From Strigamia acuminata (Eukaryota > Arthropoda > Chilopoda > Geophilomorpha > Linotaeniidae): DNA of 64,000 nucleotides. The notes under the pieces were generated by a model. That model had not been told where the DNA came from. It saw only the letters and a program-made list of their open reading frames with translations, and did not search any database. Numbering within the stretch: the stretch's first letter is position 1; each line of letters begins with the position of its first letter. A program made the position numbers and the translations under genes. Shown in pieces: positions 2,298-43,558 of the stretch. Where the stretch lies: assembly GCA_949358305.1 (NCBI GenBank), contig OX442314.1:63497369-63561368 (forward strand). The letters run 5' to 3'.

Positions 2298-5200
2298 CTA
2301 TGTCTTGGCTCGCGGAACGCGAGATCTCAAGTTGTACTTTGACTTTCGCGAAGTACAATCCAACTTGTTTAGATTGTCATCAGCATCGTCTCCAATGTCA
2401 GATGAGTTATATACTTCATTGTTTGAAATTTTCTCTTTTTCTAAAAACATTTCCTTTTCTAGATTTTCATCAAGAGAAACATTTTCAAGTCGCTGGTTTA
2501 TTTCATCGACTTCGTTATTTTTGAGTTTCGATTTTTTACTCGATTCCGTGTTTTCGACAGGAATTTTGGATAATTTAGCATCATCCAAGGTATTAACAAT
2601 ATTTTTTGTTTTTTGACCCACTTCCTCCCCTTCCAGCCAAATTTCTTGGTTGAAAACGGGAAAGTACGGCATTAATTCAGTGCCGTGAACAGCTGGATAA
2701 ATTTTATTATCACTCAGCCGTCGAAGTTGAAAGGCGCCTCCTTGTAACCTTTTGATAATTACATAAGGCCCATTCCTTTTCGGTGAAATGCCTGCTGCTA
2801 TTCCTTTAGCGGCATTTGAGAGAATATGAGACTCTCGCCAGACTAAATCATTTTGTCTGAAGTTGTCGAATTTCTTATCTGATTTTTCAGCTTCGACACG
2901 GCGTCTCAAATCTAAGACGTGAGACATCATATGCTGATACGTCTCTGCAATTATTGTTTCTAATTTCTGAACATATAAATGCGGATTTTTTGGATCAATG
3001 ACTAAAATTCCTTCCGGAATTCTTGGATCCCAAGGAATTCTTAATTCTCGGAAAAAATTTAAGAAAGCAGGAGAATAATCTCTGCCTCTTGTTACAGTTG
3101 TTCTCAAACTGAATGCAAATTCGCGTAGATACTCATCCCATTGGTCATGAATATCTAAATAAATCGAAACTAAATATTTAATATCTCGATTGGTTCTCTC
3201 CACAGGATTGCTTTGTGGATGATAAATCGATGTCGGTGTTCGCGACATGTCGAATTTTTTGCAAAATTCTTTATAGACCTGTGATCGAAATTGTGGTCCA
3301 TTATCACTTATGATTTGTCTCGGAAATCCGAAAGTCATTGATAAGTGATAAATTGTGTTGGCAACTTTTATTGCCGTTGGATTACACATTGGAAATAATT
3401 CGGGCCAATGTGTAGCGACATCTACGATGACGCAAATGTGGGTATTGTTTTTTCTGGTTCTTGGTTTGGGACCAGACAAATCCACACTGAGGCAGTCAAA
3501 TGGTCCAAATGGTCCAATTTGAGCGCCTTCAATTTCGGTCTTTGATCTCGGCTTACATGCCTGACATCCTTGACAATGTTGAATAAAACGTGTAATATCA
3601 CGTTTCATACCTTTCCAGGTATAAACTCTTCGAGTTCGGTACATTGTCCTCGCAATGCCTGGGTGGCCGGACAGTGGATGTCCGTGCATCAACCAAATGA
3701 TTTTATAAATCAATTTTCTTGGCACAACAACTTTAAGTGCCCTACCATCCTCTCCCAATTCATCGGTGGAGGTAGGATGATAATGGAGTAGCATATCTTC
3801 TTCAATGAGATAAGTACTCGCGTGTCTTTCAAAGTTTCTTCTTTGAAGACGAGTTACTATGTAACTTGGATATTGCTTGTTTAGCAAGTAATTGCGAATA
3901 TGTTGGCAAAATTCGTCTGCTTTTTGCGCTGCAATAATGTCATCTCTCGTTGGAGGATCACATTCTAATTGCTTCGCAATTTTAGCTGCAAATGCTTTAA
4001 TTAAAACATTTGTTGTTGGCAGCTCGAATTTTTTAGCCATCATAGCTCTTAATTCGACGTCAGGGGTTCCTGACGGATCATGCATGTTAATACAAAAATT
4101 AATTAATGCTTGATCGTCGTCATTAACTATTATTGACTTGGGTAATTCGTTCAATTTTCCCATTTGCCAACTTCGGCAAGGAGATGGACAATATGATAAT
4201 AAATCATCATTATCGCCATCGTCTTCTGGTTCGTCAGGTGCGCTGACAGGTGCACGTGACAATGCGTCTGCTATTACATTTAGCGGACCTTTGACGTATT
4301 GTATTTCGAACGAATACGCCATCAGCTCCATTTGCCAACGAGCTAATCTGCCCGACGGGTCAGATAACGACATCAACCACTTAAGTGCTTGGTGATCCGT
4401 TTGTACAGTGAATGTAGTGTACTCTAAGTATGGGCGAAATTTGCGTAATCCCCATACTACTGCGAGACATTCTAATTCTGTCACAGTATAATTCTTTTCA
4501 GCGGGTTGCAAGCTTCTGCTTGCATACACGCATGGCATTTCGACTTCTTGGCCATCCACAATTTTCTTTTGTGTAAGGGCTGCACCCAACCCTTGTTTAC
4601 TGGCGTCAGTATGAACAATAAATGGCATGTACAAGTCAGGCATCTTCATTGTTTCAGCATTCGTAAGCAAGTCTTTTATTGCGTCGAATGCTGCCTGATG
4701 ATGCAGTTCCCAATCGAACTCCGCATCTTTCTTCAAGAGAGGCCTTAGTGGTTCTGCCACTGTGGCCAAATTCTTGATTAGGCGGTGAAAGAAATTCACC
4801 ATGCCTAGAAATCTTTGTAATTCCTTAAGATTGGTAGGAGCCGGAAATTGCGTAATTGCAGCGACTTTTTTAGGGTCTACTGCAAGTCCTTCTACTCCTA
4901 CTTTGTAGCCTAGAAAAATTAATTCCTTTCTACAGAGATGCGTCTTGCCAGGGTGCGCATGTAAATTAGCTTCTGCCAATTTTTTAAACACTATATCTAA
5001 ATGTTTAATGTGTTCTTCGAACGATTTGGATACAATAATTATGTCATCCAAATATGCCCATGCAAATTTTCTGTAAACGTCACCCAAAACCTTTTCCATC
5101 AATTCTTGGAAAGTAGTTGGTGCGTTTACTAATCCGAAAGGCATGACTAAAAACATTAGTCTTCCCATTGGGCTCCAGAAGGCAGTTTTTTCTCTGTCTT

Positions 5201-6557: not shown

Positions 6558-9500
6558 CGAAACATGTCAGTTATGATCTTGACTGCTTTTTCAAACTCAG
6601 CTGTTGACACTGGTTTGTCCTTTTTAGAGGAAGGGCAGTCTTTTTGCCAATGCCCTAATTTTTTGCATAAATTGCATGGATCAGTGGCAGGCGATTTCTT
6701 TTTCGTTGCTGCTGGCGAGGCAGAACGAGAACGAGCGTCAGACCGGCGCTCTGGCGACACCGCAGGTGACTTTGAATTCCTTTCGGTATTCACCTTTGAT
6801 GCGTCAAATGAAACATTTTTTGGTTTCATCCTTGGCTTCCATTTGCCCGCAACGGGGTTATTTTTTGCTAACAACGCCGCTGCTTTGGCCAATAAAGCCA
6901 TCGTCTCGTCTCCTGTTTCCTCCTCCTCTTCAGCTTCTTCAGCTTCAGACGACGGAGTTTCAGCTCCAGTTATATTTGCGTGTAACTTAGGGACTGAATG
7001 AGGATTTTTGACGTCCTTTTTGGAAGATTCTTTTTTCGAACTCTTCTCATCCACTTCGTCTAGAAAGTCTTCGTAACTAGGTGGCTGCAACAATTTCAAA
7101 CCATTAAAGGTTTCATTGTTTTGCTCAGCGAGTCTTTTCTCTCGCTTTAAGTACGCTGACCTTTCGGCTTCTGTAAGATAAGCTTTGTACTTTTCGTCAA
7201 TGCGCAATTGATTGACTTCCATGAATTCGTTTAACTCGGAGAATTTCCCCGGGTCGGGAGCGTCCGACATCATCAGAATATTTTTACTATATTCTGTGAG
7301 GCCAGCTCTAAACTGATCATCTGCTGTTGCATCAGTAACAGCATGTGGCATTCTGCCAAGCAGATTCTCTGCTCTTAGCATGTACGAATGTAAGCTTTCG
7401 CCTTTTCGTTGCTTAAGACATCTCCAGAGCGTTTTGATGTCTTCGCTCGATTCACCAAATTTAAACATAAATTGTTTAACGAAGTCATCCCACTTCGTGA
7501 AGTCTTTCCTGCGAAACCACTCCTTGACACCGCCAACTAGTATTCTTGGTACTAGATGGGCCAATGCACCTTCACAGCTAAAACTGTGAACTTTGCCTAG
7601 TTCGAATATTTCCAGCAAGAGGTTTGACCCTGCTTGCCAATTTCCATTATAGGCATGTGGGATAACTCGATCCCATCTAATGAACTTTTCATCTGTTGTT
7701 TGATGAGTCCATTTATCAGAAGTAAATTCACTTATTTTTTGCAAAATAATTTTATCCCTTCTGCTTTTTCGCTGTTGTTGAGCATTTTGCCTCAACAACT
7801 GGTCAATCTCATCTTTCGTGTAGAAATCGGGTCTTTGAGTTCTACTACGTGTTCTGTGACGAGATCGCCCTCTCACACTGGGACGCGAGGAATCTGTATC
7901 TGACGCAGATTCATGATTCGGATTTGGCGGCGGATCAGGGTCCGGAGGATCGTCGCCATCTGGCGGACGACGGTCTCCATTTGGTGGTCCCCTTCCATTT
8001 CGATTGCCATTCGAATTGTGGTCACGTGAGTGGCCACCTCCATGTCCATCTGAACTATCTCCACCTGGTGGGTCACCACCTGGCGGATTTCCACGGTATC
8101 TCGGCCCATCACGGATGTCGTTATGACAATCTCGTTTTGGTGAGCCTTCTCGCGGATTATCGTGTGACCGTCCACGATCGTGTGGTTTCTCACGTTCTTT
8201 ATTCTTTTTCTCTAGCATTCCGATTAATCGGTCGCTATTGCTAAAGAATCGATCCGAATCTTGCGTAACTTTTGGGGAATGATATTCGGTCGGGTCTGGT
8301 TGTCGCTTTCGCTTTTTGCGACTGTGATGACTGTTACGGCTTCCACGACTACTGCGTGAGTCATCACTGTCAGTCCAACTTGATTGTCGACTGACTTTTG
8401 GTTTAGCTGATGTTAAATCAATCAACTCAGGTGATTTGGAAGCACCTTTTTGCAAAACTGGGGCTGGCTTTGCAAAATTATCTTCGCCACAAACGTCTTG
8501 TACTTTTTGTACTACTACTGCAAAGTTCTCTTGTACCGTCAATAGATCTGCGCGAAGAATTTCGTTTTCACGAGCTTGCGCAGCTAAGTCGGCACGTAAT
8601 AACTGCTCTGCAGTACTTTGACTTTTGGCGGCTAGACCAGCATCAATTACGGACTGCTGTCGAGCGAGAAATACTTCGTTTTCTCGTTGTGCTAATCTCT
8701 TAGCTCTTGCTGCTTGCTCTGCAGCATGATTCTCGTAATTTCGAGAAGTGGAGGGAATTACTTCCCTCGCTCGAACTGGGGCGGTTAGTTCGGCAGTCAT
8801 TAAATTTGTGTTGGCTTCTCGCAAATTTGCGTTGGCCAATCTCAAATTTTCATTAGCAATTTCTAAATCTTTTTGGGCTTGATTTAGTTGCTCGAGCCTT
8901 TGTTGTTGCTCTTCGTCAGTAATTAGCCAGGAAGCTTTTTCCTGTTCTAATTGTAACAACTTAACATGGTCATTCGCACGTTGTTGTTTTAGTTCGGCAT
9001 TTTGCTGATGCATTTCTGCACGCATTCGCTCGAACTCTGCTTGCAAGCTTGTTCTGACGATTTCAACGTCTTTTTGGCTTTGTTTGCGAACCATAGCTTT
9101 GTGGATTTGTTCCACAGTCATTTCGCTAGTGACTTTTACTCCCTCGAGCCTAGCTTGCTCACGGAGTGCGTCCATCATGGTAACACGCACGGGAGAATGA
9201 GAAACTTCCATATTGGAGTTCTCAGAATCTTGTTGTGCTGCACCTTGAACCGGTGATGAATTCAGCGAGTGCTCCGCACTTGATGATTGAATTCGTAAAT
9301 TCAAATCATCGTTTTGCGACTTGGAACGGCCACTTCCAGTTGGATTGTTTAAGTCCAACTGGCCGCTTGGCGGGGATGGCTTTTGTCGCTCCAACGCTTG
9401 CGTGAATTCATTCACGATTAACTGTGCCGAGTTACAGTTAGCTGTTTGATCCATAGTTTCAAACAGTTCTTGTGACTCAGTCACTTCTTGATCCACGGCT

Positions 9501-9568
9501 GGTAGATCGATCGCCACTCGTCTCTTCGCTGGTCTGCCTCTCGGTCTCTTTTCTGAAGGAGTCGCCAT
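6545..9568 (-). CDS. gag: Element A gag polyprotein (1007 aa)
   Basis: Structural protein of element A, forming the particle and binding the RNA. The ATG at 9568 is the first after the primer binding site, with a 91-nt leader. The order is: a Pro/Arg-rich start; a long Gln/Glu/Leu/Ala-rich segment (roughly residues 150-350) with coiled-coil character; a Ser/Arg/His-rich and then Gly/Pro/Asp-rich charged linker; a capsid-like domain (roughly 600-760) with a KEWF and WDDFVKQF-type signature of retrotransposon gag; and one CX2CX4HX4C zinc knuckle at 965-978. The protein ends 9 codons after KIITDM with TAG at 6547-6545. At about 1000 aa it is roughly two to three times the usual gypsy gag, mostly through the N-terminal coiled coil and linker. 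Element B's gag has the same plan. Confidence 0.92.
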   Translation of the reverse strand: MATPSEKRPRGRPAKRRVAIDLPAVDQEVTESQELFETMDQTANCNSAQLIVNEFTQALERQKPSPPSGQLDLNNPTGSGRSKSQNDDLNLRIQSSSAEHSLNSSPVQGAAQQDSENSNMEVSHSPVRVTMMDALREQARLEGVKVTSEMTVEQIHKAMVRKQSQKDVEIVRTSLQAEFERMRAEMHQQNAELKQQRANDHVKLLQLEQEKASWLITDEEQQQRLEQLNQAQKDLEIANENLRLANANLREANTNLMTAELTAPVRAREVIPSTSRNYENHAAEQAARAKRLAQRENEVFLARQQSVIDAGLAAKSQSTAEQLLRADLAAQARENEILRADLLTVQENFAVVVQKVQDVCGEDNFAKPAPVLQKGASKSPELIDLTSAKPKVSRQSSWTDSDDSRSSRGSRNSHHSRKKRKRQPDPTEYHSPKVTQDSDRFFSNSDRLIGMLEKKNKEREKPHDRGRSHDNPREGSPKRDCHNDIRDGPRYRGNPPGGDPPGGDSSDGHGGGHSRDHNSNGNRNGRGPPNGDRRPPDGDDPPDPDPPPNPNHESASDTDSSRPSVRGRSRHRTRSRTQRPDFYTKDEIDQLLRQNAQQQRKSRRDKIILQKISEFTSDKWTHQTTDEKFIRWDRVIPHAYNGNWQAGSNLLLEIFELGKVHSFSCEGALAHLVPRILVGGVKEWFRRKDFTKWDDFVKQFMFKFGESSEDIKTLWRCLKQRKGESLHSYMLRAENLLGRMPHAVTDATADDQFRAGLTEYSKNILMMSDAPDPGKFSELNEFMEVNQLRIDEKYKAYLTEAERSAYLKREKRLAEQNNETFNGLKLLQPPSYEDFLDEVDEKSSKKESSKKDVKNPHSVPKLHANITGAETPSSEAEEAEEEEETGDETMALLAKAAALLAKNNPVAGKWKPRMKPKNVSFDASKVNTERNSKSPAVSPERRSDARSRSASPAATKKKSPATDPCNLCKKLGHWQKDCPSSKKDKPVSTAEFEKAVKIITDMFRKNL

Positions 9569-9659
9569 TTTTCAATGAGGATTTAGAAAGGATAGAGAAG
9601 AAAGATAAGCAAGATAAAAATGGCGGGTAAATTTTAACTAACAAAGTTATACAATGACT

Positions 9660-9679: not shown

Positions 9680-10573
9680 TGCTGCGATCCGGGTTTTTAT
9701 CCACTTAATTTCTAATAAATTAAGCAGAAACCGCAGGTGAATGCTTTACAAGACTTATATCGCGGCCGAAACTTGTCTAGGGTTAAGTTTACGGAAATAG
9801 GAATAAAAAGACAGTTTATTATGGTAATAAAAATCACACAAATGTTTTATTCGATAAATTACAATATATACTAATTATGATTATGAATATCACAGAATAA
9901 AATGAGCGGGAAACAATGAAACAAAGGAAGGGCTTGCAACGACTGTTGCAAGCTACAAAGCGTCAGAAATGGCGCTTAAACAACTTGAAGTTGTTAGGCG
10001 AAGGCAAATTGTCTTCGTTCTACGAACTCACGAACGATGGTCGAAGACGATGGTTCTCGTGGGCTCCTTCTACGGCTCGTGCGACGGCTCGGCGGCGGTG
10101 GTTGACGGCTGTAGGCGTCCGGCTTTCGTACGATGGCGGTGGCTGTCGTTCGCGCAACAGCGACGGCGATGGTTCACGATCGTCGGGAATCTTCTCTTCT
10201 CGATTGCTGGAATTAGCGACGGCTAATTCAAGCAGGATTGCTGGCTTTGTGCGTTTGATACACAAAGATAGCAGGTGAAACTGAGTTACAACGGTCCTCT
10301 ATCAATACTTTTCTTTCAGGAGCAAAAGCAGTGATGTTGAGGTTGTTGTTGTATTTTTCAGAGTCCCGATTTGAGCCAAGACGCGAGCCCAGCACGCTTC
10401 AATATTGCGCAGAAAACCTGCGCACTTAGCTCAAATGGGTGCAACTAGTGGTTATTACACCATATTGCACCATAACGGCTAATAACCGTTTTCACCCCGG
10501 ACAACCTGGGGTGATATGTGCCTAGAGAGGATTTCTCCCCTCGGTCACATGATCTGACTTGGCGTGTGCCACA
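9680..10573 (-). repeat. 5' LTR of element A
   Basis: The inner edge is firm: TG at 9680, two bases from the primer binding site, exactly as in element B. The outer edge is set at 10573, where the plus strand reads GTGCCACA. In element orientation this gives a start of TGTGGCAC, matching TGTGGTGA in B. Minus-strand AATAAA signals occur at 9815-9820 and nearby, as expected for R. The Arg/Ala-rich short frames at 9.9-10.3 kb are not genes. The length of about 894 bp is an estimate until the partner LTR is seen. Confidence 0.65.
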
Positions 10574-11882
10574 GTCAAATTAATTAGAAGATAATTAATT
10601 TAATCTTCTAAGTTGGTGAATATTTTGAGATCACCACACATCAGCATGGTAAGCCGTTGCCAATTGCCATCCATATTTTTAAGCCCTTCAATACCCCTAA
10701 GTAAACACCAAACACAAATTAAATTAAAGAAAAAAAGAGACAAAAAAGAAAAGAAGAAAAAAAGCAGCAGCAAATTCCATTCAACTCGGAGCAACCGTGT
10801 GCACTTAATTAATTTCATATGCAGAACTACCCTCTGCAATTGGATTATAGGTTTGATTGAAAATGTAAATTTTAGCTTCTTTAAAACGAAAGAAAGAAAG
10901 AAAGAAAGAAAAAGGAAAAAAGAAGGGAGAAAAAAATTGGAAAATAGTTTTCTCGGTGTTAAAGAAAGGCGATAAGTCTCTCTCTTCTTTTGCACTAGCT
11001 GCAAATGTCCTCTTTGCACCGGGGTCCCTTAATGACTCGATTTTGGCGTTGTAGCATCCGACTTGTCTAGATTGCCTTCCTATTTCATTGCGCGTCTGTG
11101 TGAAATCACCTCGCAGGATTCATCGCGGCCCAACACACTCGGATGCTTGTTTGGCGCGTGCGAGATGATATTTTGCACCTTTAGTTTTGCATATTTAGAC
11201 CCGCGTGTGTCGGGTACCTGCGGGAGCTGGCGCGTTATAAATCAGCGCCCGAGTGCCTTTTACCTGAGCATCTCATCAACGCTTAATTGGTCCCTCAAGA
11301 AAATGGCGAAGATTTCAAGAGAGCCAAATGGAATAAAGGTGTTTTCATCAAGTAGAAAGTGGGGTGTGGTCGAGTGGACAATCGATGGGGATAAGTGAAG
11401 GGAGAAATGCAGACTGACTGGTCTCGCGAGAAGAGGGAAAAAGAAAATTTCTATCAAAAGAAAAGAAAAGAAAAGAAACGAAGAGAAGAGAAGCGTGCAT
11501 GCATCACCTCGGTCTCCTGTTTAACAAAAATTTGTTTCTCTTTTGTCCTTTAAGCTGTTGCAAACCGCAGTTTCCTGTCTACTTTGTTGCTTTCGCTCTT
11601 TTCAACGCGGCAACACGAACGCAGGGGGACACTTTTTCGCATTTATTGCCGGAATTAATTTTTCAACATTTTTTTTACCAATTACAATATTAAAAACGAC
11701 TGTCTCAAACATTGATTTAGACAGGTTTAAACCAGATAAACCAGTATAAATGACTTTTCCAATGTACCGAGAGTGATTCAGCAGAAAACACCAATACGAG
11801 AAGAAGAAAAAAAAGACAAAGAAAAAGAAAAGGAAAAAGAAAAAGGAATGGTACTATTAACTGTGGATAAACCTTCGAGTTC
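10574..11882. other. Non-coding stretch right of element A
   Basis: AT-rich DNA with A-rich low-complexity tracts, including (AAAG)n near 10,892 and (AAAAG)n near 11,458. A perfect 9-bp-arm hairpin (TTAGAAGAT...ATCTTCTAA, 10584-10611) lies just outside the LTR of element A. A TATAAA at 11236-11241 followed by TCATC near 11,273 is weakly promoter-like. No convincing coding frame or RNA gene. Confidence 0.5.
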
Positions 11883-30685: not shown

Positions 30686-30689
30686 CATA
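30686..30689. repeat. Target site duplication of element B, left (CATA)
   Basis: CATA directly precedes the TG of the left LTR and recurs at 43555-43558 after the right LTR. Because the LTR ends in ACA, the duplication can also be read as 5-bp ACATA. Confidence 0.8.
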
Positions 30690-31509
30690 TGTCGCGTCCT
30701 ACTTGGTATAGGTTTAAATAGCGCTAACGTGTAATACTTTACCTGTGATCAATTATGTAAATACCCAAATGAATACCAAATGTATGTAAATAAACAGGTA
30801 ATTTATTCACCAGGCTTTATGCCTTTAAAATACACTCAGTAATAATTCTAGAGTCGACGTGGTCAGCGTCGAACAAAGGATTTCTCAAGATGGCGTCGTC
30901 GATTCCGCGTGGTCGGCGGAACAAAGGCGGCGTCTCGAGTTGTCGTTAATTCGTCACGGATTCGTCTTCACGGACGCGGTGGAATGCTCTTTCGAGTCTT
31001 CTATCCGTGCCTGTTGTCTAGGGTTTGTTTAGCGTCGCAGAGGCCTCGTCTAGGAACTTTGGGGTTCCCTACAAAGCACTCGGACACTTACTTCGGCGAA
31101 TAATCGTCTGGGCGATTATTCTGGGTGATTTCACAAGGGCTATTCTCGTGCTTTCGCAGGAATAGCTCGCAAGTGACTTCGTGAGAGTTACAGTTTGCAC
31201 TTTACTCAGCGATCCTCGATCAATCCTAACTTGTAGTTGAAGTTGGCCTGACGGTGAGGTAGTTGCTGTGTTCTTGGTGTCGTTTGTGTAAGTTCTGTCT
31301 TTAGGCGGGAAACACAGCCTTTTATGCAGTGGGGTGAAGGGCCGGCGATCAACCAATGGGGGCTGACCACCAGCCGCTTCCTCCCCCTCGGGGCACACAC
31401 CTGCCATGGGGAGGTGGAGCCAACTCGGGGGGGAACGACTCTTTAATCATAGTGACTCATAGGACAAGTATCCGCCCTGGGGGGACACTTATCCAACTGG
31501 GTCACCACA
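30690..31509 (-). repeat. 3' LTR of element B (820 bp)
   Basis: Plus-strand TGTCGCGTCC...GGTCACCACA, repeated exactly at 42735-43554. In element orientation: TGTGGTGACC start, a TATA-like CATAAAAGG at 31318-31326, AATAAA at 30802-30807 and a GCGACA end. Short open frames inside it (30,909-31,407) are not genes. Confidence 0.95.
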
Positions 31510-31525
31510 CGTCCCTCCTCCAGCT
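31510..31525 (-). promoter_or_regulatory. Polypurine tract of element B
   Basis: Minus-strand GGAGGAGGGACG directly abuts the 3' LTR, where the plus-strand DNA primer is expected. It is short and interrupted by one C, but it is the only purine run at that position. Confidence 0.6.
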
Positions 31526-31556: not shown

Positions 31557-34500
31557 TCATCGCTCTCCTCTGCGAAGAGCCGGCAGCACTCCTCTGCATG
31601 GGCGGAGGATCACGGGTGGCACTGCCGGTGGCGGCGGTGGTAAATCCGGGGGCAGAGAGGTTGTCAGATCCGCAGGATTTTGTCGCTCGTTGATGAAGTA
31701 CTGCGGGTGACTGCCGGCTGGCTCGCCAACCAACCCCGTACGCTCATGGATCCAAATCCGGGTAGACGCGGGGAATCGATCGGGGACGAGTCGGATCCTT
31801 CGCGACTCGGCGCTCGATCCGGGTTTCCTGTGGGCCCGTAGGATACGGCGATGGAAGACGGCGTCCATGGTGGATCGGGCTTCTCTGTTTAGCCATTTGA
31901 GGATTGATTCGCCGTGATCGTCGGAGTCAATGATGCGTTGTCGCGTGAACTCCGACATCTGAAGGAAGGGGTATTCCACTCCCAGCCTCAAATAAAGCTG
32001 CGCTGCTGGGGGCGGCGGAGGCGATGGTGGGAGCGGAATCTCCATTGGGCTCTCCAACGGTGGCGTAGCCGGCTCTGCAGAGAGAGCGGCCAGCCCTGCC
32101 GCTGGTGGTGAAGGAGAGGGCAGCGGAGGAGTTCGGGGTCCTCGGTTGGAACGCTTCGGAATCAATATGGGTCGATTCGCATGTCGCTTCTCCTTCGGGA
32201 ATACCGGCTTTGGGGTCGGTATGTATGGTTGGACCGCCGCCTCTGGGGGGGCGGTCTCGATGGCCTGTGGAAGGCTCGCCGCCGTTCCCGGTATCTCCGG
32301 AACCTCCCGAATTGTTCGCAACAAGGAAGGGTGGACTCCGGGGTTCCGGTAGCGGAATGCTAACGAACGCATCTTTGAAAACTGTAGGCCTGGGTTTTCC
32401 GTATTTCTGGCCAGGTCGAAGCGCAGCGAGGCGGGCTCAGGAGTCCATCCGGCCCATACCTGGTACAACGCCCGAGGAAGGTGAACTCCCTCACGGTCGA
32501 CGATTGTCCAGGCCGCCATAGCTTGCCGACTGTCCAAGAAGACGCCCAGGGATAGCAGCTGGGCCAGTACGTTCGTCACAGCCAAATTCAAACTGCTCCG
32601 ATGGCAGGGGTGAGCGCGGTCCGGATTGTCACTGAATTGTTGTGACAACGTCCGCATCTGTTCGATCGCCCAGTTGATGTGGTGAGTTTGGGCGGCGTCG
32701 GCCTGTCGTATGGCCAACTCGGCAATCGCGGGGTTCTCGTATTCGGCCAGATATTCTTGTAACTCGCTGAGTGGGGGATAGGCCGCTTCACGCCGGCATC
32801 TGGCGTCCATCTCCCGCTGCGCGTACCACTCGGCGTTGCGATAAGGTCGACACACTCGTGGCGTTGGGGGTGACGGTGGACGGCCCAGCCCGGGTAGATT
32901 ATCGTATCTGACCCGCTTCGGAGCTGGATCCCCCACCGGAATCATCCGGGGAGGGGTCCAAGCGGTCACGGCTGGGTTTGTACCCTCGAGGAGTGGCGGC
33001 CATCGCGATTGCACTTGTGGGGGCACAAGCGCGGTGGGCACAGCCGGTGTTGAGCCCGACGGCCGGTTGGCCGCGTATCCTCGGAAGGCGTTCTTCAATG
33101 CTACGGCCAGATCCTGTTTTGTAACCGGCCCATCTTTGTCCGACTTATCTGGGGACATTTGCTCTTCCGTCAACTCTCCCAAATCAATCTCTGCTTGGCG
33201 CCTGGACGGTCCAGCCGTGGGTCCGAGACTCTGGGGTTCGGACCGTTTCGCGGCGGCCATCTCTCGCTCCTTCTCTAATCCCTTAGCTATCAGGGATTGT
33301 GCTCGCAACTTCTGACGTACTTTGCGCTTTCGATTCCTCCGGGTGCTGGCTGCGACGGATCTTCGTTGGGCCGTCCTCTGGGGGACGTCCGTCGGAGAAT
33401 TCGGTCTCTGGTGTGATGAGACGGTTCGTCGCGACGAGGATTGATCTGACGACTGTGTGGTAATCGCCATGAACAACGAGGATCTTTTCTTTCCTCGATC
33501 TTGGTGTGTCTCGGTCCTCGCAGCCCAGTGGGCGGAAGATTCGACTGTTCGCTCAGCCCGCGCGTCGTCTGGCGAGGCAGGCTCGAGCGTTACTACTCGG
33601 CGACACTCCGAGCGCACGACAACTCGAGTTCGGGAACTGGAGCTGCTCGAGCGGCTGCGGTAGTCGCGGCTCGTTGACGGGCCGGCCTCTATTGGGGAGA
33701 CGGCCTGTCTTCTTCGTGCGGGTCCGCGTGGGGCGGACTCCGCCGGACGCTTCGATCTTCTGTGATGGCGGCGACTTCCCAGGATACCAGCGTGGTATAA
33801 CTGCCACATCTCAGACTGCGTGGCCGTAAAATTCGCCGGCGGTATCCATCTGGGTGTCAGATGATCTTCTTCGATGTCGCGAAGCCATCTACGGATTTCT
33901 TCGGGGGAGAAACCGTTTCTCTCGAGAACTCGGGTTACTCCGTGAGTCTCGGTGCGCTTTAAGCGTTCGATCTCGTCGTCCACTATTTTCTGGCGGGCTG
34001 CCAAGGTCGGGGCCTCGCTCCACCTGTGGGAGGTGTGCAGCTCGGCCACCGTGCCTGGGTAAGCCTCTTCCAGGTACCCGGAGTAAACGGGGCTCGGCGG
34101 ATCCGCATCGGGTGGGATCCGCGGCCCCACTCGCTCCCTCATCTCCTTCGTCATGCACTCGACCAGCGTTTTCGATCGCTCGAATTTTTCCTCGAGGGTC
34201 CTGGAGTACATCAATCGGATTTTCCAGGCGCTGGTCTCTGCAGGATAGGCCTGCCGCAGGTAAATCGGCAGGGCTCCGCGAAAGATGTTGTTGGCGGTTG
34301 ACACCGTCGAAGGCAGGGCGTCCCACGATTCTAGCGGGTCGACCTGAATAATTTTAGATCACAAGATTAATATAATAAATCCCAGTTTAACGATGGGGAT
34401 CAGAAATATGCTCAAGATCGACGGTGGCAGCAACTCCTTTCTTTTGTTGCGGCCGTCGGTCTTATTTTCTTGTTTCGCAGTTCTGCGATGATCTCCGCCG

Positions 34501-35022
34501 TCGTAGCGCTGATCCAACACTACCTTTGAACTCAGGTGATCCGCTTTTTTGGAAGGGGTCGCAGGCAAAACCGATCGTTAAATTTTAATTTCTTACGCTA
34601 AACTTTTTTATTTTAACTCTAATCGTATTTTAATTTATTACGATGTTTAATTTTAAAAGAAAGAAAACCTTTAGTTTTGGTTTTGGTTTGCCACGACGCC
34701 ATTCCGCGAACACTTCCTTTGTTCTAGTTTTTTGGCGGCCTTGACTCCGAGGTGAATCTGGGTCCACTCTCGGGTTTTTAGCCAGCCTTAAATCAACAAT
34801 AAAACAGAAAGAAATATATCAGTCACAAGTCACGCTCCAATCTGGGTTGGATGCAACAGATTCAAAGAATTATGTGATTTCTCTGGGGAAATCACACTAA
34901 TTTACCTGCAACGGCGGTTGTTCGTCCCAATTCTCATCGTCTTCTGCATTTACGATTAGGCCGTCGCTCTCGTCTCTCGACGATGCGCTCGGCTCTAATC
35001 GTGGGTTGCGTCGATCGGCCAT
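31557..35022 (-). CDS. Element B ORF3, two exons, predicted 967 aa
   Basis: Third ORF of element B. The main exon, 34343-31557, is open for 928 codons but has no in-frame ATG upstream of a TGA; its first non-ATG start would be a GTG at 34304. It begins exactly after an AATTATTCAG acceptor. A 39-codon exon at 35022-34906 starts with ATG, is acidic and ends in CAG|GTAAAT, phase 0, matching the acceptor phase; the intron would be 562 bp. The protein has a conserved N-terminal block (IFRGALP motif, shared with A), basic and Ser/Arg-rich segments including RRNRKRKVR, a helical region shared with A, and a Pro-rich C-terminus (runs of PPSPPPPP type). There is no signal peptide, membrane helix, zinc knuckle or known enzyme motif. 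Not an env. Function unknown; nuclear or RNA-linked roles are only a guess. Confidence 0.75.
34344..34905 (-). other. Predicted intron of element B ORF3
   Basis: Bounded by CAG|GTAAAT and an AT-rich ATTATTCAG acceptor. A 69-codon minus frame inside it (34,568-34,359) is Lys-rich and then hydrophobic; I regard it as intronic, although an extra optional exon cannot be excluded. Confidence 0.55.
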
Positions 35023-35396: not shown

Positions 35397-38300
35397 TTAG
35401 TTCTTCCCCACGACTTTGCCGTCCCGAATGAACGGATTATTGCTTCGTCGTGGTCGAAGGTTGATTTTCGACGTGCTCGTAGATCGTGACTCTACTTGCT
35501 CGTTCATCTCCGATGTGTTGGCATTTTTCTCATTACTAATTTTTTTATTTTCCATTTCAGAAGTACTTTCTTCTGCTTCCTCCCTCTCCGAAATTGCTTG
35601 CTCCGGCTGTGCTGGAGCCTCGTCGGCCGGAGATTCGGCGTCGAAGAATTCATCCTCGTCCTCCGCTATATTTTCAGCTTCATTTGTTTTTTGGAACGTG
35701 TCGACCACGGTGCCCCCTTGGCCGCTGTGTGTCTGACCTTCCAGCCAGATTTCTTGGGGAAACTCTGGCAGATATGGCCTTAAATCTCGGCCATGTATCG
35801 ACTGAAAATTTTTGTTGTCCTCTAAGCGGCGTAGTTGGTATGCGTTGCCGCCGTGTTCGGCCACAATTACATAGGGACCGTCCCTCTTGTCGGCTAAACC
35901 TGCGGCGATGCCCCTCGCTGCATTGGACAACGTGTGTGCCTCCTTCCACACTAGATCATTCACTTTAAAGTTCGCGAAAGCGAGATCGCCTTCTTTATCT
36001 GCGATTCTTTCTCTCATGTTGAAAATATGCGCCATCATATGCTGGTATGTGTCGGATATAGTCTGTTCCAACCGGCACACGTACTCGTGTGGGCTCGATG
36101 GGTCTAATACGTTAACAGCTTCGGCAACGCGTGGGTCCCATGGCATCCTTAATTCGCGGGCGAAGTTGAGGTACGCCGGTGAGAATTCGCGTGTTCTTGA
36201 CACGGTTGAGCGAATGCTGAAAGCGATTTCTCGCAGGTATTCGTCCCATCGATTGTGAATATCGGTGAATACTGTCAGCGCATATTTTATGTCTTTATTT
36301 AATCTCTCGACTGGGTTTGTCTGAGGATTATACGTGGAGGTGTTTGATGCATCCATTTTAAATTTTCTACAGAAGTCCTTATATATTCTCGATCGGAATT
36401 GGGGGCCGTTATCCGAAATGAGTTTTCTGGGAAACCCAAATCGCATTGCCACGTCGTAAAGGCACTCGACTATGTTTTCAGCCGAGGGCTTCGCGAGGGC
36501 GTACAGCTCCGGCCATCGGGTGGCCACGTCCATAATTACGAGAATATACATGTTCTTGTTTCCCGTTGTGGGCTTGGGGCCCATCAAGTCTATGCTTAAG
36601 CAGTCAAACGGTGCGTAGGGTCCGAGAGACATGGCGTTTCTGGCTACTTTATCTCGCGGTCTGCATGCTTGGCACCGGGGGCAGTGTCGGATAAATTTCG
36701 TTATCTTTTGCCGCGCGCCCGGCCAGAAGAAAAGTTGCTTTACTCGATAAAGGGTTCTCGCTATGCCGGAATGGCTGGCGAGTGGGTGTCCGTGCATCAG
36801 CCACAACAGTCGGTTGTGCAGTGATGCCGGTACGACCACTTTCACCGAGTTTCCCGCTCCACTGAGGTCATCTTGAAATGTCGGGTGGTATTTTACCAGG
36901 AGTTCATCATCTATGAGGTAGCTTGTTGCTTCTTTGACGAACTGTTTCCGGCGGTGTGGGTTTGTCATCCCTTCCGGAAATTCGCCGTTCAGCAAATATT
37001 GCGTTATAATTTGACATTTTGTGTCTGCTGCCTGGTGTTCGACGAACTCACGTCTCGTGGGTGGAGCATATTGCGTTTTTTCCTCAATTTTTGCTGTGAA
37101 GGCGCGTAGTAGTGTTTTGTGGGTTTCTCCGGGGGGCGGAGGTTGAATTGCGGACGTTGAATCGCTCGTCCCAGCTGGCTGGTACGTTCGAGTCCAAAAA
37201 CCACAAAACGTTCTATCTTCGGGCTCCATCACCGGCAGTTCGTTTGCTTTTCGTAAGCGCCATATTCTGCGTGGAGTTGGGCAGTACAAGAGGTGGGTGT
37301 CGTCCTCGCCGTCGTCGTCTGGTCCCTGGGGGTCAGAGGCTGGGGCTCTTGAGAGGGCGTCGGCCACATGATTGTACTTCCCGGGGCGGTACGTAATTGT
37401 TATATCGCACGCCATTAACTCCAGTTGCCATCTTGCGAGTCGGCCGGAAGGTTCCTTGAGCTTCATCAACCAGCTTAGTGCCTGGTGATCTGTCTGAACC
37501 TCGAAGTTCGTGTACTCCAGATAGTCGCGAAATTTTCGAACTGCCCAAATTACGGCTAGGCATTCTAGTTCCGTTGCCGTGTAATTTTTCTCCGCGCCCT
37601 GTATTTTCCTGCTTATAAACATACAGGGTACTTCTTGCGAGATTCCGTTGTACACGTGGGTCTGCAGAAGGGCTGCACCCAGTCCGATTTTACTCGCGTC
37701 GGTGTGCAACACGAACGGTCGGTTTAGGTCCGGCAATGGCATCTTTTCGACGTCAGCCAGCATTTGCTTGATAGTGCTAAATGCGGCCTCGCACTGGACC
37801 GTCCACTCAAACTCTTTATCCGTTCGTAAGAGATCCGTTATAGGCGCGGCCACCTCAGCCAGACCAGAGAGTAGTCGGCCGAAGAAATTGACCATGCCCA
37901 TGAATCTTTGGACACCTTTTATATCTTCGGGGGCGGGGAATCCGTTTATTGCTTTGACCTTTTCGGGGTCAATCGCGATTCCCTCGACTCCTATTCGATA
38001 TCCTAGGAAGGCAAGCTCTTTCCTGCAAAACTTGCTCTTCCCTGGATGGATGTGGAGTCCTGCCTTGGCTAGGCGAGAGACCACTCTATCGATGTGGTCT
38101 ATATGTTCTTCGAATGTGTCCGACGTTATTATGATGTCGTCGAGATACGCCCACACGAAGTCGTGCAGCATATCTCCCAACACGCTTTCGATCAGTTTCT
38201 GGAACGTGCTCGGGGCGTTTACAAGCCCGAACGGCATCACGTTGAACATTAGTCTTCCTATCGGGGAGTAGAAAGCCGTTTTCAGTTTGTCTTCGGGTTT

Positions 38301-39533
38301 TAGCTCCACTTGCCAATACCCCTTTGACAGGTCCATGGTGGTTACCCACTTGAACGGGCTCAGTTCCCGGAGGATCGAGTCTATAGACGGCATCTGAATC
38401 GGGTCTATAACCGTTATCGCGTTCAGGGGGCGATAATCAATGCATAGTCGAGGTTCCGAGCCTGGACGCATCACCAGGACGATCCGCATGGCGTATTCGC
38501 CCAGGGCTTGCGTTACTATGCCCTTGTCGAGCATGTCTTGGCACATTTGCGTCACGATGTCTCTTTTCTGGGGGTTCATCCCCTTGTAAGGCACTCGAAT
38601 CGGCTTGTCTGTGGTTAAGACTATTTCGTGTGTTGCTTCCGTCGTTCGACCAGGTGTCTTGGTCAGAATTCTTTCATGCTTTCGAAGCACTCGCCTTAGT
38701 AGCGATGCCTCGTTAACACGCAGTGCTGCCTCCTCGACCAGGGTGTCCACGACGTTACTCCTCTGTAATTCCAGAGTGAAGGCTGCGAAATCGTAATCTT
38801 GGACGAATTTTCGCAATCCTCTTCCGTATTCCTCTTTGTCCTTGGCTTCGTCCAGTAATTTTTGGGGAACTACGGGGACTGACCGTTCTCCCTCGGGACT
38901 TATCCAGTTCCATGAACGGGTTATCGGGTTTGGCTGAATTTTCAGTTTCGCCATGATGTCCATCCCTAGGAGGAATACTTTGTCGTGGGATGGCAAGACT
39001 ATGAAGGGGTGGGACAGGTTCCCCCCCGTCCAGTCGATCATGATGCGAACTACGCCCTTCGGCTTGACGTAGCCGTTGGCGGTGAGCAATTCTACGTTCG
39101 CGTTCACTTGTGCCACCTTCTTTCCAATATCCAAGTCTTTTACTATATCTTCGGATATGAATGAACGATCCGCTCCTGAATCCAGTAGACCGAACAATTT
39201 TTGGTTTTCTATCTCCACTGGCAGCATACACAGAGTTTCGCAATGTGCTTTCGTGACATTGCAGTGAAATACGCGTAATGTCTGGGGCTCAACCTCCAGA
39301 TTGAACGGAAGGTCCGTCCAATCCATGTCGACCTCCGGTTTCGTTCTCACTTGCATACTCGTTAACGTCACTTTTTCCTCCTTCTTCGGAACGATCTGTA
39401 TGCGGTCTTTGATCTGTGCCTCTGCCAAGGCATGACCTGCGGGTCCAGTGTGATATTTCTTCTTTTTAATTTCCGCGGCTGGCGCAGACGAAGCTGAATT
39501 TATTTCGGCGACGCCTGCGCTTGGGAGTTTTTT
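35397..39533 (-). CDS. pol: Element B pol polyprotein (protease, RT, RNase H, integrase)
   Basis: Pol of element B, over 1340 aa. There is no ATG: the frame is open from the frameshift site at 39527-39533, and the first alternative codon is a TTG at 39428. Numbered from that TTG: protease DSGA at 83-86; RT with YRPLN, MPFGL and YLDD (428-431); RNase H acidic residues near 577, 620, 647 and 690; integrase zinc finger H881/H886/C916/C919; catalytic triad D947, D1006, E1041 with the 34-residue D-E spacing of Ty3/gypsy; and a GPY motif near 1205. There is no chromodomain. It is clearly homologous to element A pol along its whole length (for example WDEYLREIAFS against WDEYLREFAFS). An Asp/Glu/Ser-rich tail follows. 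No inactivating change was seen. Confidence 0.96.
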   Translation of the reverse strand, partial: KKLPSAGVAEINSASSAPAAEIKKKKYHTGPAGHALAEAQIKDRIQIVPKKEEKVTLTSMQVRTKPEVDMDWTDLPFNLEVEPQTLRVFHCNVTKAHCETLCMLPVEIENQKLFGLLDSGADRSFISEDIVKDLDIGKKVAQVNANVELLTANGYVKPKGVVRIMIDWTGGNLSHPFIVLPSHDKVFLLGMDIMAKLKIQPNPITRSWNWISPEGERSVPVVPQKLLDEAKDKEEYGRGLRKFVQDYDFAAFTLELQRSNVVDTLVEEAALRVNEASLLRRVLRKHERILTKTPGRTTEATHEIVLTTDKPIRVPYKGMNPQKRDIVTQMCQDMLDKGIVTQALGEYAMRIVLVMRPGSEPRLCIDYRPLNAITVIDPIQMPSIDSILRELSPFKWVTTMDLSKGYWQVELKPEDKLKTAFYSPIGRLMFNVMPFGLVNAPSTFQKLIESVLGDMLHDFVWAYLDDIIITSDTFEEHIDHIDRVVSRLAKAGLHIHPGKSKFCRKELAFLGYRIGVEGIAIDPEKVKAINGFPAPEDIKGVQRFMGMVNFFGRLLSGLAEVAAPITDLLRTDKEFEWTVQCEAAFSTIKQMLADVEKMPLPDLNRPFVLHTDASKIGLGAALLQTHVYNGISQEVPCMFISRKIQGAEKNYTATELECLAVIWAVRKFRDYLEYTNFEVQTDHQALSWLMKLKEPSGRLARWQLELMACDITITYRPGKYNHVADALSRAPASDPQGPDDDGEDDTHLLYCPTPRRIWRLRKANELPVMEPEDRTFCGFWTRTYQPAGTSDSTSAIQPPPPGETHKTLLRAFTAKIEEKTQYAPPTRREFVEHQAADTKCQIITQYLLNGEFPEGMTNPHRRKQFVKEATSYLIDDELLVKYHPTFQDDLSGAGNSVKVVVPASLHNRLLWLMHGHPLASHSGIARTLYRVKQLFFWPGARQKITKFIRHCPRCQACRPRDKVARNAMSLGPYAPFDCLSIDLMGPKPTTGNKNMYILVIMDVATRWPELYALAKPSAENIVECLYDVAMRFGFPRKLISDNGPQFRSRIYKDFCRKFKMDASNTSTYNPQTNPVERLNKDIKYALTVFTDIHNRWDEYLREIAFSIRSTVSRTREFSPAYLNFARELRMPWDPRVAEAVNVLDPSSPHEYVCRLEQTISDTYQHMMAHIFNMRERIADKEGDLAFANFKVNDLVWKEAHTLSNAARGIAAGLADKRDGPYVIVAEHGGNAYQLRRLEDNKNFQSIHGRDLRPYLPEFPQEIWLEGQTHSGQGGTVVDTFQKTNEAENIAEDEDEFFDAESPADEAPAQPEQAISEREEAEESTSEMENKKISNEKNANTSEMNEQVESRSTSTSKINLRPRRSNNPFIRDGKVVGKN
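39482..39533 (-). promoter_or_regulatory. -1 ribosomal frameshift signal of element B
   Basis: The gag frame reads GCA AAA AAC TCC, giving heptamer A AAA AAC at 39527-39533. Six nucleotides downstream GCGCAG (39515-39520) can pair with CTGCGC (39482-39487); three inner pairs extend the stem to 9 bp with one G-U. Pol is in the -1 frame. The gag stop TAA (39502-39500) lies in the loop. Confidence 0.78.
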
Positions 39534-42500
39534 GCTAGATTAGTATTTAACTCCATCATCATTTTCATCAAGGTTTGCATGATGCCTTTTTCTTTGACGG
39601 TTTTTTCGCATTTGTCGGAGTAGTGACCGTATTCTCCGCAGCTGTAACATTTGATGTTACTTTTGTCCCCTGTGGGAGTGAATCCCGGTTTTTTCGGGAC
39701 GAAGGGCGTCGGAAATCGTCTTTTTCCTCCCAATGCCCCTCTCGCTTTTGTTGCCTGCACGTGTGCTCTGAATTGTGCGATTGCTAAGGCCCGGTGTGCA
39801 TGGTGCAAATAGGGACCTTGATCGTCGCATCCCGTCGACAAGTTTTCGAGGTGCTCATTTAGGGCTTCCTCGTCGCTTGATGCTGGCTCCTCTTCTTTAG
39901 CCGTGGCGAGAGGTGTTGTCTCTTCGACTTTCTCCATCTGGGTGGAGTCCGTCGAGGTCACCTGCATCGCCGTTGCTGCCGGTGCTTTCTTTGGGGCAGC
40001 TATCGGGTTGGCTGGAAGAATACTGCCTGCTTTAGGCGTCAGCATTCGTCCGAAGGATGCTTCGGTGAGACTCATTATGCCGCTCAAATATTCACTTGGC
40101 CTCATTAATTTTTCTGAGGTCTTGTGGCGTTCGGCGCTCGTCTGCAACCGCTTCTCGTGCGCGTCAGCTTCTTCCGGGGGCAGAGTGGCGTAATACCGCT
40201 GTTCTATTTCTAACGTGTTTGTTAGAAGATAGTTACTGACATCTTGGTAATCGCCAGTGCGGGGTGCACGCATGTCTAGCAGAATTCTTTGCGAGTGGGC
40301 CGATAATCCTCCGTAAAAGATCATCGTAAAACCAGCGGGGTTTATTTCGTACGGCGCTCTTGCAAACAGGAGTTTCGCTCGGGCGTCGTAGTCGGCTAAT
40401 GTTTCTCCTGGGGCTTGCCGTAGACCACGTAATTTGTTACTGATCTCGTCTGGAGTCTCGCCGTATCGGAGATCGAAACGGACGAGAAAATCGTCCCAGG
40501 TTGGGTTTTTCAGTCCCTGATACCATTCTCGAGCTGACCCCGTGGTTAGCTCCACTAGACCGTGGGTTAGCATGTCGGCGACGGTGGCTTTTGTCGCTTT
40601 CTTGATACGCATTACTTCGTCTAGGAAGCGGTCTCCGGCCTTCCACGAACCGTCGAATCGTGTTTGTATGTAGTGTTGCCAACGGATGTTACCCGTGGCT
40701 TCGCTGCTTGGTTCGTTTCGTACGCCATATTTGCGCTTAACCCTCTCTCCGGCGCGATTATGTTCGTCGCCTGGATGGCCTAGATCTATTCCTTCTCTTC
40801 TGAAAGAGTTCAGCAGGGCTCGGCCTAGCTCAGACATCGTGTAATGTCGGCCAGATGAGTCCTGAAAGTTCCCTTCCTCCGAACGAGGGTTGGAGCTCCG
40901 GGAGGAGCGGTCTGAAGCATTCGGCCGGTTCGACCGGTGCCCATCGCTGTCTTCTTGACTCCTCCCTGTAGACGGTCGACTCGGATGGTCGTCGTCCGAC
41001 GAATCGGAGGGCTCGGAGGGATCTCCTTGGGGGTGAAACCTCGGCCCTCTCGGTGGGGTCTCTCCGCCAGCCTTCTTCTGTTTCGAGCCTCCGGATGGCG
41101 GCGGCTCCCCTCCGTCGTTGTTCTCGTAAAAAGAATGCCATCTGTTTTCCTCGCTTTCGGGGCGTTCCCGATTTTTATTTGCGTTTTTCTTTTCGAGTAA
41201 CGCGTCGATGGCTGCTCCCGTCTCGGATCTTTTTGAGGGGTGACGGTCCTTTGTTTTTGGGACCGACTCGTCTCTCTTTTGAGATTTCCCCCTTTTCGCC
41301 GTTTTTGCCGGCTTTGTTGCACCTTCTCCTGTGTCGGTATCAGAGCCGCTGGGGGGTTCTGGTTTCCGTTTCAGGTTTTCTTCATTTTTCTTCCTGTCCG
41401 AGACGTCTTGTGCGTACTCTTTCTGGAACTTTTCTGTCTCCTTCTCCCAGTTTTCGGCTTCCCATCTTTTTTGCTCATCTATTATAGCTTGTTTCTTCGC
41501 TTTGTACTCTTCGGTCCATCTGACTCGATCCCACTCTTCTTTCTCTTTCAGAAACTGTTCTTTTTCTTTTCTGGCTTCCTCTTCTCTCAACCTCTCGCGA
41601 TGTTGTTCTTCCCATTTCTGATGTTGTAGAATGGCCTCTTTTCGCAACATTTGTAGTTTTTCTGTTTTTCTTTGAGCTATTAGCGCTTGAAATTGGTCCT
41701 CGTACTCTTGAGCTTCTCGATGTCGCCCTTCTACTGTTGCGTTCCATTCTTTTCGAATTTTAGCTTCTCGTTCTTCCCTCATTTTTTGGACCAGTTTCTC
41801 TGTTCTCTCGGTGGTTCTTCTCTCGCGTTGCTCCCTTTCTTCCTCTTCCTTCCAGAGTTCTCGCCGCTCTGCGCTCAGCCTTCGTTGACGACTAGTCGCT
41901 TCTTGTCTGGCTTCCTCGCGGGCCTTCTCTCTGGATTCGTGAAGTGTTCGGTTGGGGTCTGGCGCGAAACCTCCGGTGTCACTGGGCGTTACCTGGGGCA
42001 TGGGCGTCTCCGCTGCTGGTCTTGCGACCGGCGTCGGGGCTTGTGCCGCACAGATAGCGTCAGTGAGTAGGGTAATCGATTCCCAGACTGACGTTCCTAC
42101 TGGAATGTCTATCATCGCTTTCAGTTGGGCAGCTTGCCGTGTCAACCGAATTAGGTGAGATACCTCGAAGGAAACAACCGCAGGACTCGCCGTAACTCGG
42201 GGGGTTATCGGGGTCCCGCCGTCGTTTTTTCGTGGGGTTTGCTCCACGGACGTCTGAGCCGTGGGTGGCGATGGGTTCGTGCCGACCGTGACCGTTATTT
42301 TCGGAGCTTCATTCGTCTCCTCGGTCATCAATATCGATACTCGTCCTGGCGATACGTCGCGAATTTCTTCTCGATTTTCTATGGCTTCCGGATCGGTATC
42401 CTCGAAGGGTTGCATATTCAAGGGAACCCGCTCTCGCTCTGGCCCGTCTAGGGCCGCGAGCGATGCAGCTTGCTCCTCTTTCTGCGCCTTCGCTCTCCTT

Positions 42501-42640
42501 TTATTCGCTCGGGCTTTCGCCTTTGCGGACATTTCAGGGACGGGACCATCCGATCTCAGGTGGTAGTCGGAGGTCCTTTTTCCCTTCTCGGGCATTCTCT
42601 GCTCGGTTTCAGACGTGGATTGCTCGTCTTTGTCTGACAT
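39500..42640 (-). CDS. gag: Element B gag polyprotein (1046 aa)
   Basis: Structural protein of element B. The ATG at 42640 lies 75 nt after the primer binding site. The order is: a charged, Lys/Arg/Ala-rich N-terminus; a Thr/Pro-rich segment; a very Glu/Arg/Lys-rich block (about residues 230-420) of strong coiled-coil type; a Ser/Asp/Arg-rich linker; a capsid-like domain (about 650-800) with REWYQG and WDDFLVRF signatures like those of A; a Glu/Ala-rich spacer; and one CX2CX4HX4C zinc knuckle at 998-1011. The last 35 residues contain a Met-rich helix and the slippery site. It is unusually long for gypsy gag, and the coiled-coil block explains most of the excess. The stop is TAA at 39502-39500. 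Confidence 0.92.
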   Translation of the reverse strand: MSDKDEQSTSETEQRMPEKGKRTSDYHLRSDGPVPEMSAKAKARANKRRAKAQKEEQAASLAALDGPERERVPLNMQPFEDTDPEAIENREEIRDVSPGRVSILMTEETNEAPKITVTVGTNPSPPTAQTSVEQTPRKNDGGTPITPRVTASPAVVSFEVSHLIRLTRQAAQLKAMIDIPVGTSVWESITLLTDAICAAQAPTPVARPAAETPMPQVTPSDTGGFAPDPNRTLHESREKAREEARQEATSRQRRLSAERRELWKEEEEREQRERRTTERTEKLVQKMREEREAKIRKEWNATVEGRHREAQEYEDQFQALIAQRKTEKLQMLRKEAILQHQKWEEQHRERLREEEARKEKEQFLKEKEEWDRVRWTEEYKAKKQAIIDEQKRWEAENWEKETEKFQKEYAQDVSDRKKNEENLKRKPEPPSGSDTDTGEGATKPAKTAKRGKSQKRDESVPKTKDRHPSKRSETGAAIDALLEKKNANKNRERPESEENRWHSFYENNDGGEPPPSGGSKQKKAGGETPPRGPRFHPQGDPSEPSDSSDDDHPSRPSTGRSQEDSDGHRSNRPNASDRSSRSSNPRSEEGNFQDSSGRHYTMSELGRALLNSFRREGIDLGHPGDEHNRAGERVKRKYGVRNEPSSEATGNIRWQHYIQTRFDGSWKAGDRFLDEVMRIKKATKATVADMLTHGLVELTTGSAREWYQGLKNPTWDDFLVRFDLRYGETPDEISNKLRGLRQAPGETLADYDARAKLLFARAPYEINPAGFTMIFYGGLSAHSQRILLDMRAPRTGDYQDVSNYLLTNTLEIEQRYYATLPPEEADAHEKRLQTSAERHKTSEKLMRPSEYLSGIMSLTEASFGRMLTPKAGSILPANPIAAPKKAPAATAMQVTSTDSTQMEKVEETTPLATAKEEEPASSDEEALNEHLENLSTGCDDQGPYLHHAHRALAIAQFRAHVQATKARGALGGKRRFPTPFVPKKPGFTPTGDKSNIKCYSCGEYGHYSDKCEKTVKEKGIMQTLMKMMMELNTNLAKNSQAQASPK

Positions 42641-42734: not shown

Positions 42735-43554
42735 TGTCGCGTCCTACTTGGTATAGGTTTAAATAGCGCTAACGTGTAATACTTTACCTGTGATCAATTA
42801 TGTAAATACCCAAATGAATACCAAATGTATGTAAATAAACAGGTAATTTATTCACCAGGCTTTATGCCTTTAAAATACACTCAGTAATAATTCTAGAGTC
42901 GACGTGGTCAGCGTCGAACAAAGGATTTCTCAAGATGGCGTCGTCGATTCCGCGTGGTCGGCGGAACAAAGGCGGCGTCTCGAGTTGTCGTTAATTCGTC
43001 ACGGATTCGTCTTCACGGACGCGGTGGAATGCTCTTTCGAGTCTTCTATCCGTGCCTGTTGTCTAGGGTTTGTTTAGCGTCGCAGAGGCCTCGTCTAGGA
43101 ACTTTGGGGTTCCCTACAAAGCACTCGGACACTTACTTCGGCGAATAATCGTCTGGGCGATTATTCTGGGTGATTTCACAAGGGCTATTCTCGTGCTTTC
43201 GCAGGAATAGCTCGCAAGTGACTTCGTGAGAGTTACAGTTTGCACTTTACTCAGCGATCCTCGATCAATCCTAACTTGTAGTTGAAGTTGGCCTGACGGT
43301 GAGGTAGTTGCTGTGTTCTTGGTGTCGTTTGTGTAAGTTCTGTCTTTAGGCGGGAAACACAGCCTTTTATGCAGTGGGGTGAAGGGCCGGCGATCAACCA
43401 ATGGGGGCTGACCACCAGCCGCTTCCTCCCCCTCGGGGCACACACCTGCCATGGGGAGGTGGAGCCAACTCGGGGGGGAACGACTCTTTAATCATAGTGA
43501 CTCATAGGACAAGTATCCGCCCTGGGGGGACACTTATCCAACTGGGTCACCACA
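42735..43554 (-). repeat. 5' LTR of element B (820 bp)
   Basis: Direct repeat of 30690-31509. In this copy the TATA-like CATAAAAGG (43363-43371) would drive the genomic transcript leftwards. The AATAAA of R/U5 is about 500 bp further on, so U3 would be about 220 bp and R-U5 long. Followed by the CATA target duplication at 43555-43558. Confidence 0.95.
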
Positions 43555-43558
43555 CATA

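Follow-up and report, generated by a model that had tools for sequence, protein, structure and literature searches.

A spliced, non-envelope third gene in two Ty3/gypsy-type retrotransposon families of Strigamia acuminata: evidence from genomic copies

We analyzed a window of 64,000 nucleotides from Strigamia acuminata (contig OX442314.1, positions 63,497,369 to 63,561,368), which contains two LTR retrotransposons, here called A and B. Both carry a long open reading frame downstream of pol, ORF3, and we conclude with good confidence that it is a true third gene of at least two Ty3/gypsy-type families, that it is expressed through splicing, and that its product is not recognizable as an envelope protein. 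An earlier note, made from the letters of the window, had proposed for element B a third gene expressed through an intron in a Ty3/gypsy lineage. That proposal is now supported by seven spliced retrocopies in the A family, by selection on the frame, and by the presence of the gene in a second family. The Ty3/gypsy label of the lineage rests on the LTRs, the order of domains in pol, and database hits sharing pol domains.

Architecture of elements B and A

Element B lies on the reverse strand and has the LTR structure of Ty3/gypsy elements. Its 5′ LTR (42735..43554) and 3′ LTR (30690..31509) are identical, each being 820 bp long and running from TG to CA, and a short CATA duplication flanks them at 43555–43558 and 30686–30689. 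The ends were set from an exact 821-base match to 30690–31510, which was cut back by eye so that each LTR is TG..CA and flanked by CATA. A gag-like frame, taken from its first ATG (39500..42640, reverse strand), has a weak zinc knuckle match near its C-terminus (zf-CCHC, E=0.002, below Pfam's cut-off). The pol of B (35397..39539, reverse strand) encodes, by Pfam, protease, RT, RNase H, and integrase, in an order that is shared by the pol of A. A scan of viral contigs with the pol of B gave no result, and a search of the 64-kb window at Rfam gathering scores gave no RNA family.

Between pol and the 3′ LTR of B sits the ORF3 gene, also on the reverse strand. Its first exon (34906..35022) starts with ATG, spans 117 nt or 39 codons, and ends in TTGCAG, directly followed by the donor GTAAAT. 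A predicted GT-AG intron of 562 nt (34344..34905) separates it from the main exon (31557..34343; 928 codons and a stop), and the two exons join in phase 0 to give a predicted product of 967 aa with a pI of 9.9. The coordinates and matching phase given for this ATG exon and intron in the earlier note were confirmed, as was its description of the product as basic and rich in Ser/Arg and Pro; ORF3 is very Arg/Pro-rich, and exon 1 of A is short and acidic. Read from stop to stop, the frame in B covers 933 aa, five codons of which precede the acceptor. In 500 dinucleotide shuffles of 31557–34358, read in all six frames, the longest open frame was 488 codons, against the 933 observed.

Element A, on the same strand, follows the same gene plan. 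Its 5′ LTR (9680..10642) is 963 bp long and has an identical partner just left of the window, its gag-like frame (6545..9571) has a zinc knuckle match that again falls below the cut-off (E=0.0009), and its pol (2298..6566) is 50% identical to that of B. All 33 of the A pol copies scored are open across 1422 aa. Downstream of pol come an upstream intron of 66 nt (1994..2059; GTAAGT..TTCAAG), ORF3 exon 1 (1866..1955; ATG, 30 codons), an intron of 270 nt (1596..1865), and the main exon of ORF3 (1..1595), which extends left beyond the window and completes a protein of 760 aa in all. The 270-nt intron has a GTAAAT donor and lies in phase 0, the same phase as the intron of B. The ORF3 proteins of A and B are similar and collinear at both ends (BLASTP E 5e-7 and 1e-7), and their identity across the whole alignment is about 25%, compared with 50% for pol; on this sequence similarity, we regard them as homologous. 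In six of seven intact A-type sequences an in-frame TAG ends at the acceptor, and there the frame does begin exactly at that site. The earlier claim that the ORF3 frame starts precisely behind its acceptor is therefore correct for these six sequences and not for B, where the frame opens five codons earlier. The same TAG rejects readthrough from upstream into ORF3 as a route of expression in those six sequences. A start at an internal ATG of the ORF3 exon was likewise rejected: conserved sequence precedes the first Met of that exon, which is residue 45 in B and falls between residues 78 and 318 in the seven A-type sequences.

Several side observations were made on the two elements and their surroundings. 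Nearly identical putative primer-binding sites, TGGGGGCC[CT]GTCCGGGAT, lie on the reverse strand at 42715–42732 in B and 9660–9677 in A, and we take them to be tRNA-Pro-like. One A-type copy (G000:C1:26202668-26203042, reverse strand) has an ORF3 frame listed as 1271 aa, which exceeds exon 1 and ORF3 together. A tandem array at 28727–29259 consists of about 27 copies of a 20-bp unit with 92% matches, and a repeat of ~120 bp occurs outside both elements at 13609–13724 and 46011–46131 (91% identical).

Copies of ORF3 and selection on both exons

Copies were sought in the 237.5-Mb genome (157 contigs). With the whole-length B ORF3 as query, the 49 best loci, scored from 2637 first-look candidates, were all open over 933 aa. 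A 168-aa N-terminal query matched at all 150 of the best loci scored (1231 candidates); 132 of these keep the 933-aa frame, which is shorter in 17 and longer in one, these counts being biased toward the best copies as they come from the best-scoring loci. The 3′ end of B exon 1 had 166 genome matches at up to one mismatch, against one for the reversed pattern. The frame is thus present in other copies, where the earlier note had proposed to look for it, and the gene recurs in A.

For selection in B, we fetched 40 copies from the best 49 and added the window copy, giving 41. Every one of the 41 has the main exon open at the same length and also carries the ATG exon, which occurs as three protein variants among them; the GTAAAT donor is found in 40. 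Pooled pN/pS was 0.10 (34 distinct sequences among the 41 copies). Variants found in at least two copies comprised 106 synonymous and 26 nonsynonymous changes, and singletons 57 and 32, respectively. No variant was a stop codon in these 41 copies; they had been chosen by an intact-frame search, which partly explains the missing stops and affects the pN/pS ratio less. Synonymous diversity was uneven, with pS at 0.19 in codons 801–900 and 0.07 or less elsewhere across the 41 copies, a peak that may reflect recombination between subfamilies.

Another seven A-type copies, of lower identity, were retrieved, and dN/dS was calculated on the window copy plus six, excluding the broken copy L065. Across the 21 pairs of these seven sequences, dN/dS was 0.08–0.17 at dS of 0.16–0.90, and the pooled uncorrected pN/pS was 0.19. 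For A-type exon 1, pooled pN/pS was 0.28 in frame, compared with 1.65 and 1.36 when it was read in either of the alternative frames. Purifying selection acts on both exons as protein. The ratios in both families lie far from the value near 1 that the earlier note had named as a refutation. They also refute the idea that ORF3 is a non-coding accident, for which only the absence of known domains speaks; together with the frame-specific pN/pS of exon 1 and the 488-codon maximum in shuffled sequence, they leave that idea a probability of practically nil.

Splicing in the two families and the structured A intron

The best evidence for splicing comes from processed copies of the A family. The predicted A-type junction between exon 1 and ORF3 has seven genome matches with zero mismatches, and the reversed-pattern control has none. 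All seven copies were fetched and read, and in each the ATG exon is joined exactly to ORF3, the roughly 270-nt intron being precisely gone. In five of the seven (L067, L068, L069, L072, and L073) a 66-nt GTAAGT..TTC[AT]AG stretch is missing as well, while L070 and L071 retain it upstream of exon 1. The 66-nt intron pattern was matched in six of eight A-type sequences, the exceptions being L065 and L066. When three mismatches were allowed, a genome search for the junction left by the 66-nt intron returned 12 hits against six for the reversed pattern, and of these we used the four at 0–2 mismatches together with that of L068. A further A-type copy, at C1:63982127, apparently lacks the 66-nt intron (two mismatches), and its 761-aa ORF3 frame points to retention of the second intron. 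Splicing in the A family removes the 66-nt and about 270-nt introns and joins the ATG exon in phase 0 to ORF3.

Over 230 exonic bases, L071 and L073 show no difference from the window copy of A, and this identity indicates recent intron loss rather than divergence. The junction copies belong to different subfamilies and lack different sets of introns. This suggests that introns were lost several times independently, with recombination between copies as an alternative. Reading continues in frame through the fetched sequence in six of the seven, L068 being broken; among the loci listed with frame lengths, which do not include L070, five of the seven have frames of 821–827 aa and the L068 locus one of 257 aa. 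Upstream, each of the seven copies still has the end of pol, so RNA containing at least part of pol also loses the introns.

In the B family, the predicted 34906/34343 junction had no genome match at up to two mismatches. One of the 40 fetched copies, L018 (G000:C1:58130436-58134636), is without exactly 119 nt, corresponding to 34787..34905 on the reverse strand, a GT..AG stretch from the predicted donor to an alternative acceptor. Its junction occurs once in the genome, and past it the exon 1 frame runs for two more codons before a stop. When exon 1 ends were paired with ORF3 starts (92 of the 100 ends listed, out of 166 in total, with 149 of the 150 starts listed), 91 of the paired introns measured 558–565 nt and one, that of L018, 442 nt. 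The donor at 34906 is very likely real in B; a chance deletion in L018 between ends that share a three-base match is less likely. The join of this donor to ORF3 is predicted from the reading frame, from selection, and from the A family. The junction foreseen in the earlier note thus has its donor borne out by L018, and its join to 34343 was not recovered as a retrocopy. Two guessed junctions between a donor in the LTR and exon 1 of B were not found at up to three mismatches.

The A-type intron is itself conserved. Its pairwise difference among A-type copies is 0.135, compared with a pS of 0.37 at ORF3 synonymous sites, so the intron is more conserved than these. The A intron (235 of 270 nt) is far more stably folded than shuffled sequence, with a z of −6.48, and the intron of B also folds more stably than its shuffles (z −4.36). 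For seven A-type introns, RNAalifold returned 72 pairs, six of them changed on both sides; in the alignment, 98.2% of cells can pair, against 35–43% with partners slid, and the covariation score lies above all 500 shuffles. Two measures, the counts of double-change pairs and of pair types, are no higher than in shuffles, and the scoring used the very alignment of seven related sequences from which the structure had been drawn. These results support reading the A-type intron as a conserved hairpin array with some compensatory changes. Some stretches of the intron presumably resemble E-box, X-box, and YY1-type DNA motifs, and constraint at the DNA level is a possible second reason for its conservation.

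The ORF3 protein, its possible role, and known systems

Searches of Pfam, NCBIfam, PHROGs, and PDB sequences with ORF3 gave chance-level scores at most (best E 0.81 and 0.24). Of 7986 candidates scored in a large protein database, none matched B ORF3 at E≤1, though low-complexity words may have crowded the candidate set. Scans of viral contigs and of prokaryote genomes gave no result, and fold searches with the second ORF3 structure model gave no match at E≤0.001. The structure models are of low confidence (mean pLDDT 39 and 42) and weakly outline a protein whose N-terminal and middle parts are helical, with linkers rich in Ser, Arg, and Pro and a small part at the C-terminus. The earlier statement that no family is recognized therefore holds in HMM, PDB-sequence, and structure-based searches, none of which matched above chance. 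Its term "new accessory protein" likewise holds for newness within the sequence and structure libraries; that the protein is accessory in function we infer. Judged from these libraries, ORF3 is probably an uncharacterised helper protein of the element.

A third gene in an LTR retrotransposon is usually taken as env or its relic, and the position of ORF3 between pol and the 3′ LTR, as well as its splicing, would fit a diverged or degenerate errantivirus-like envelope gene. The protein argues against this. Among windows starting at residues 1–49, the highest 19-residue hydropathy (KD19) was 0.57 in B and 0.41 in A, leaving no N-terminal hydrophobic segment. The usual KD19 threshold for a membrane helix is about 1.6; residues 624–642 of the joined B product reach 1.75, but no stretch of the A protein exceeds 1.0, so hydropathy gives no membrane helix common to the two. 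The earlier assertion that ORF3 has neither signal peptide nor membrane helix is accordingly upheld in the main, with the qualification that this one B segment just passes the threshold. By hydropathy and Pfam, ORF3 lacks the signal peptide and membrane anchor of an envelope glycoprotein, and its composition is rich in Arg and Pro. We consider the envelope reading very improbable.

Two further proposals deserve more weight, though we think each of them unlikely. ORF3 could be a structural component of the particle, either a coat protein or a second Gag-like protein, and the low-confidence models, with their helical middle region and Pro-rich linkers, agree with this; against it, comparison with Gag gave an hhalign probability of 0.8% (between two shallow profiles) and a best BLASTP E of 2.4, and Pfam detects no zinc knuckle in ORF3. 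To the same limited degree it may be a silencing suppressor or transcriptional regulator aimed at the host and not at element RNA. Some viral regulators are non-membrane, partly disordered proteins made from spliced RNA, and ORF3 is non-membrane, partly disordered, under selection, and made from spliced RNA, but it has no family match in the Pfam searches. To the notion that ORF3 is a captured host gene carried as a passive passenger we assign a low probability. It matched no known retroelement family, as such a gene might; however, it occurs in two families in which pol is 50% and ORF3 about 25% identical, with the same intron phase, and it has been under long-term purifying selection. Element copies fill the scored candidates in the genome, a scope in which any single-copy host paralogue would be masked.

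We instead favor a role inside the cell, and it seems an even chance that ORF3 works with the element's own RNA or particles, as a regulator or as a nucleoprotein partner. In the mechanism that we propose, the B donor at 34906 would be used with two acceptors, the one after 34787 yielding a 41-residue stub and the one after 34344 the 967-residue protein, so that acceptor choice would set the amount of ORF3. A leader splice or some other device would place the ATG exon near the 5′ end of the RNA. ORF3 would then act on element RNA or particles and not as an envelope. We also put forward, as quite unlikely, a feedback circuit in which ORF3 would bind the hairpin array of its own intron; intron-keeping RNA would be exported and packaged, and spliced RNA would yield more ORF3. 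If true, this would be a Rev/RRE-like system that evolved independently in an LTR retrotransposon.

Whatever its role, a lineage with many recent copies retains a large non-membrane third protein under strong selection and with no matched family. Elements A and B offer a system for asking how a third protein benefits a retrotransposon that has no env, and for studying the balance of spliced and unspliced RNA, with processed copies making splicing testable from genome sequence.

Three known systems bear comparison. In errantiviruses, the gypsy group of insects, env is made from spliced RNA. A and B resemble them in their Ty3/gypsy-type pol, in a third gene between pol and the 3′ LTR, and in splicing, a trait established in A by the seven retrocopies and assigned to B by homology of plan only. 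They differ in that ORF3 has no N-terminal hydrophobic segment, common membrane helix, or match to env models, and in that the gene itself is divided by a structured intron and starts in an ATG exon of its own. Some plant LTR retrotransposons carry additional conserved ORFs downstream of pol to which no function has been assigned, and A and B similarly carry a conserved post-pol ORF; unlike those, ORF3 needs splicing and a separate ATG exon, a distinction drawn on gene plan. Finally, retroviral Rev and Rex are made from a multi-exon message, and the Rev-response RNA is structured. ORF3 likewise has a multi-exon message in which splicing keeps or removes a structured RNA stretch, whereas the protein is far larger and has no similarity in the searched libraries, and its binding to intron RNA is our proposal.
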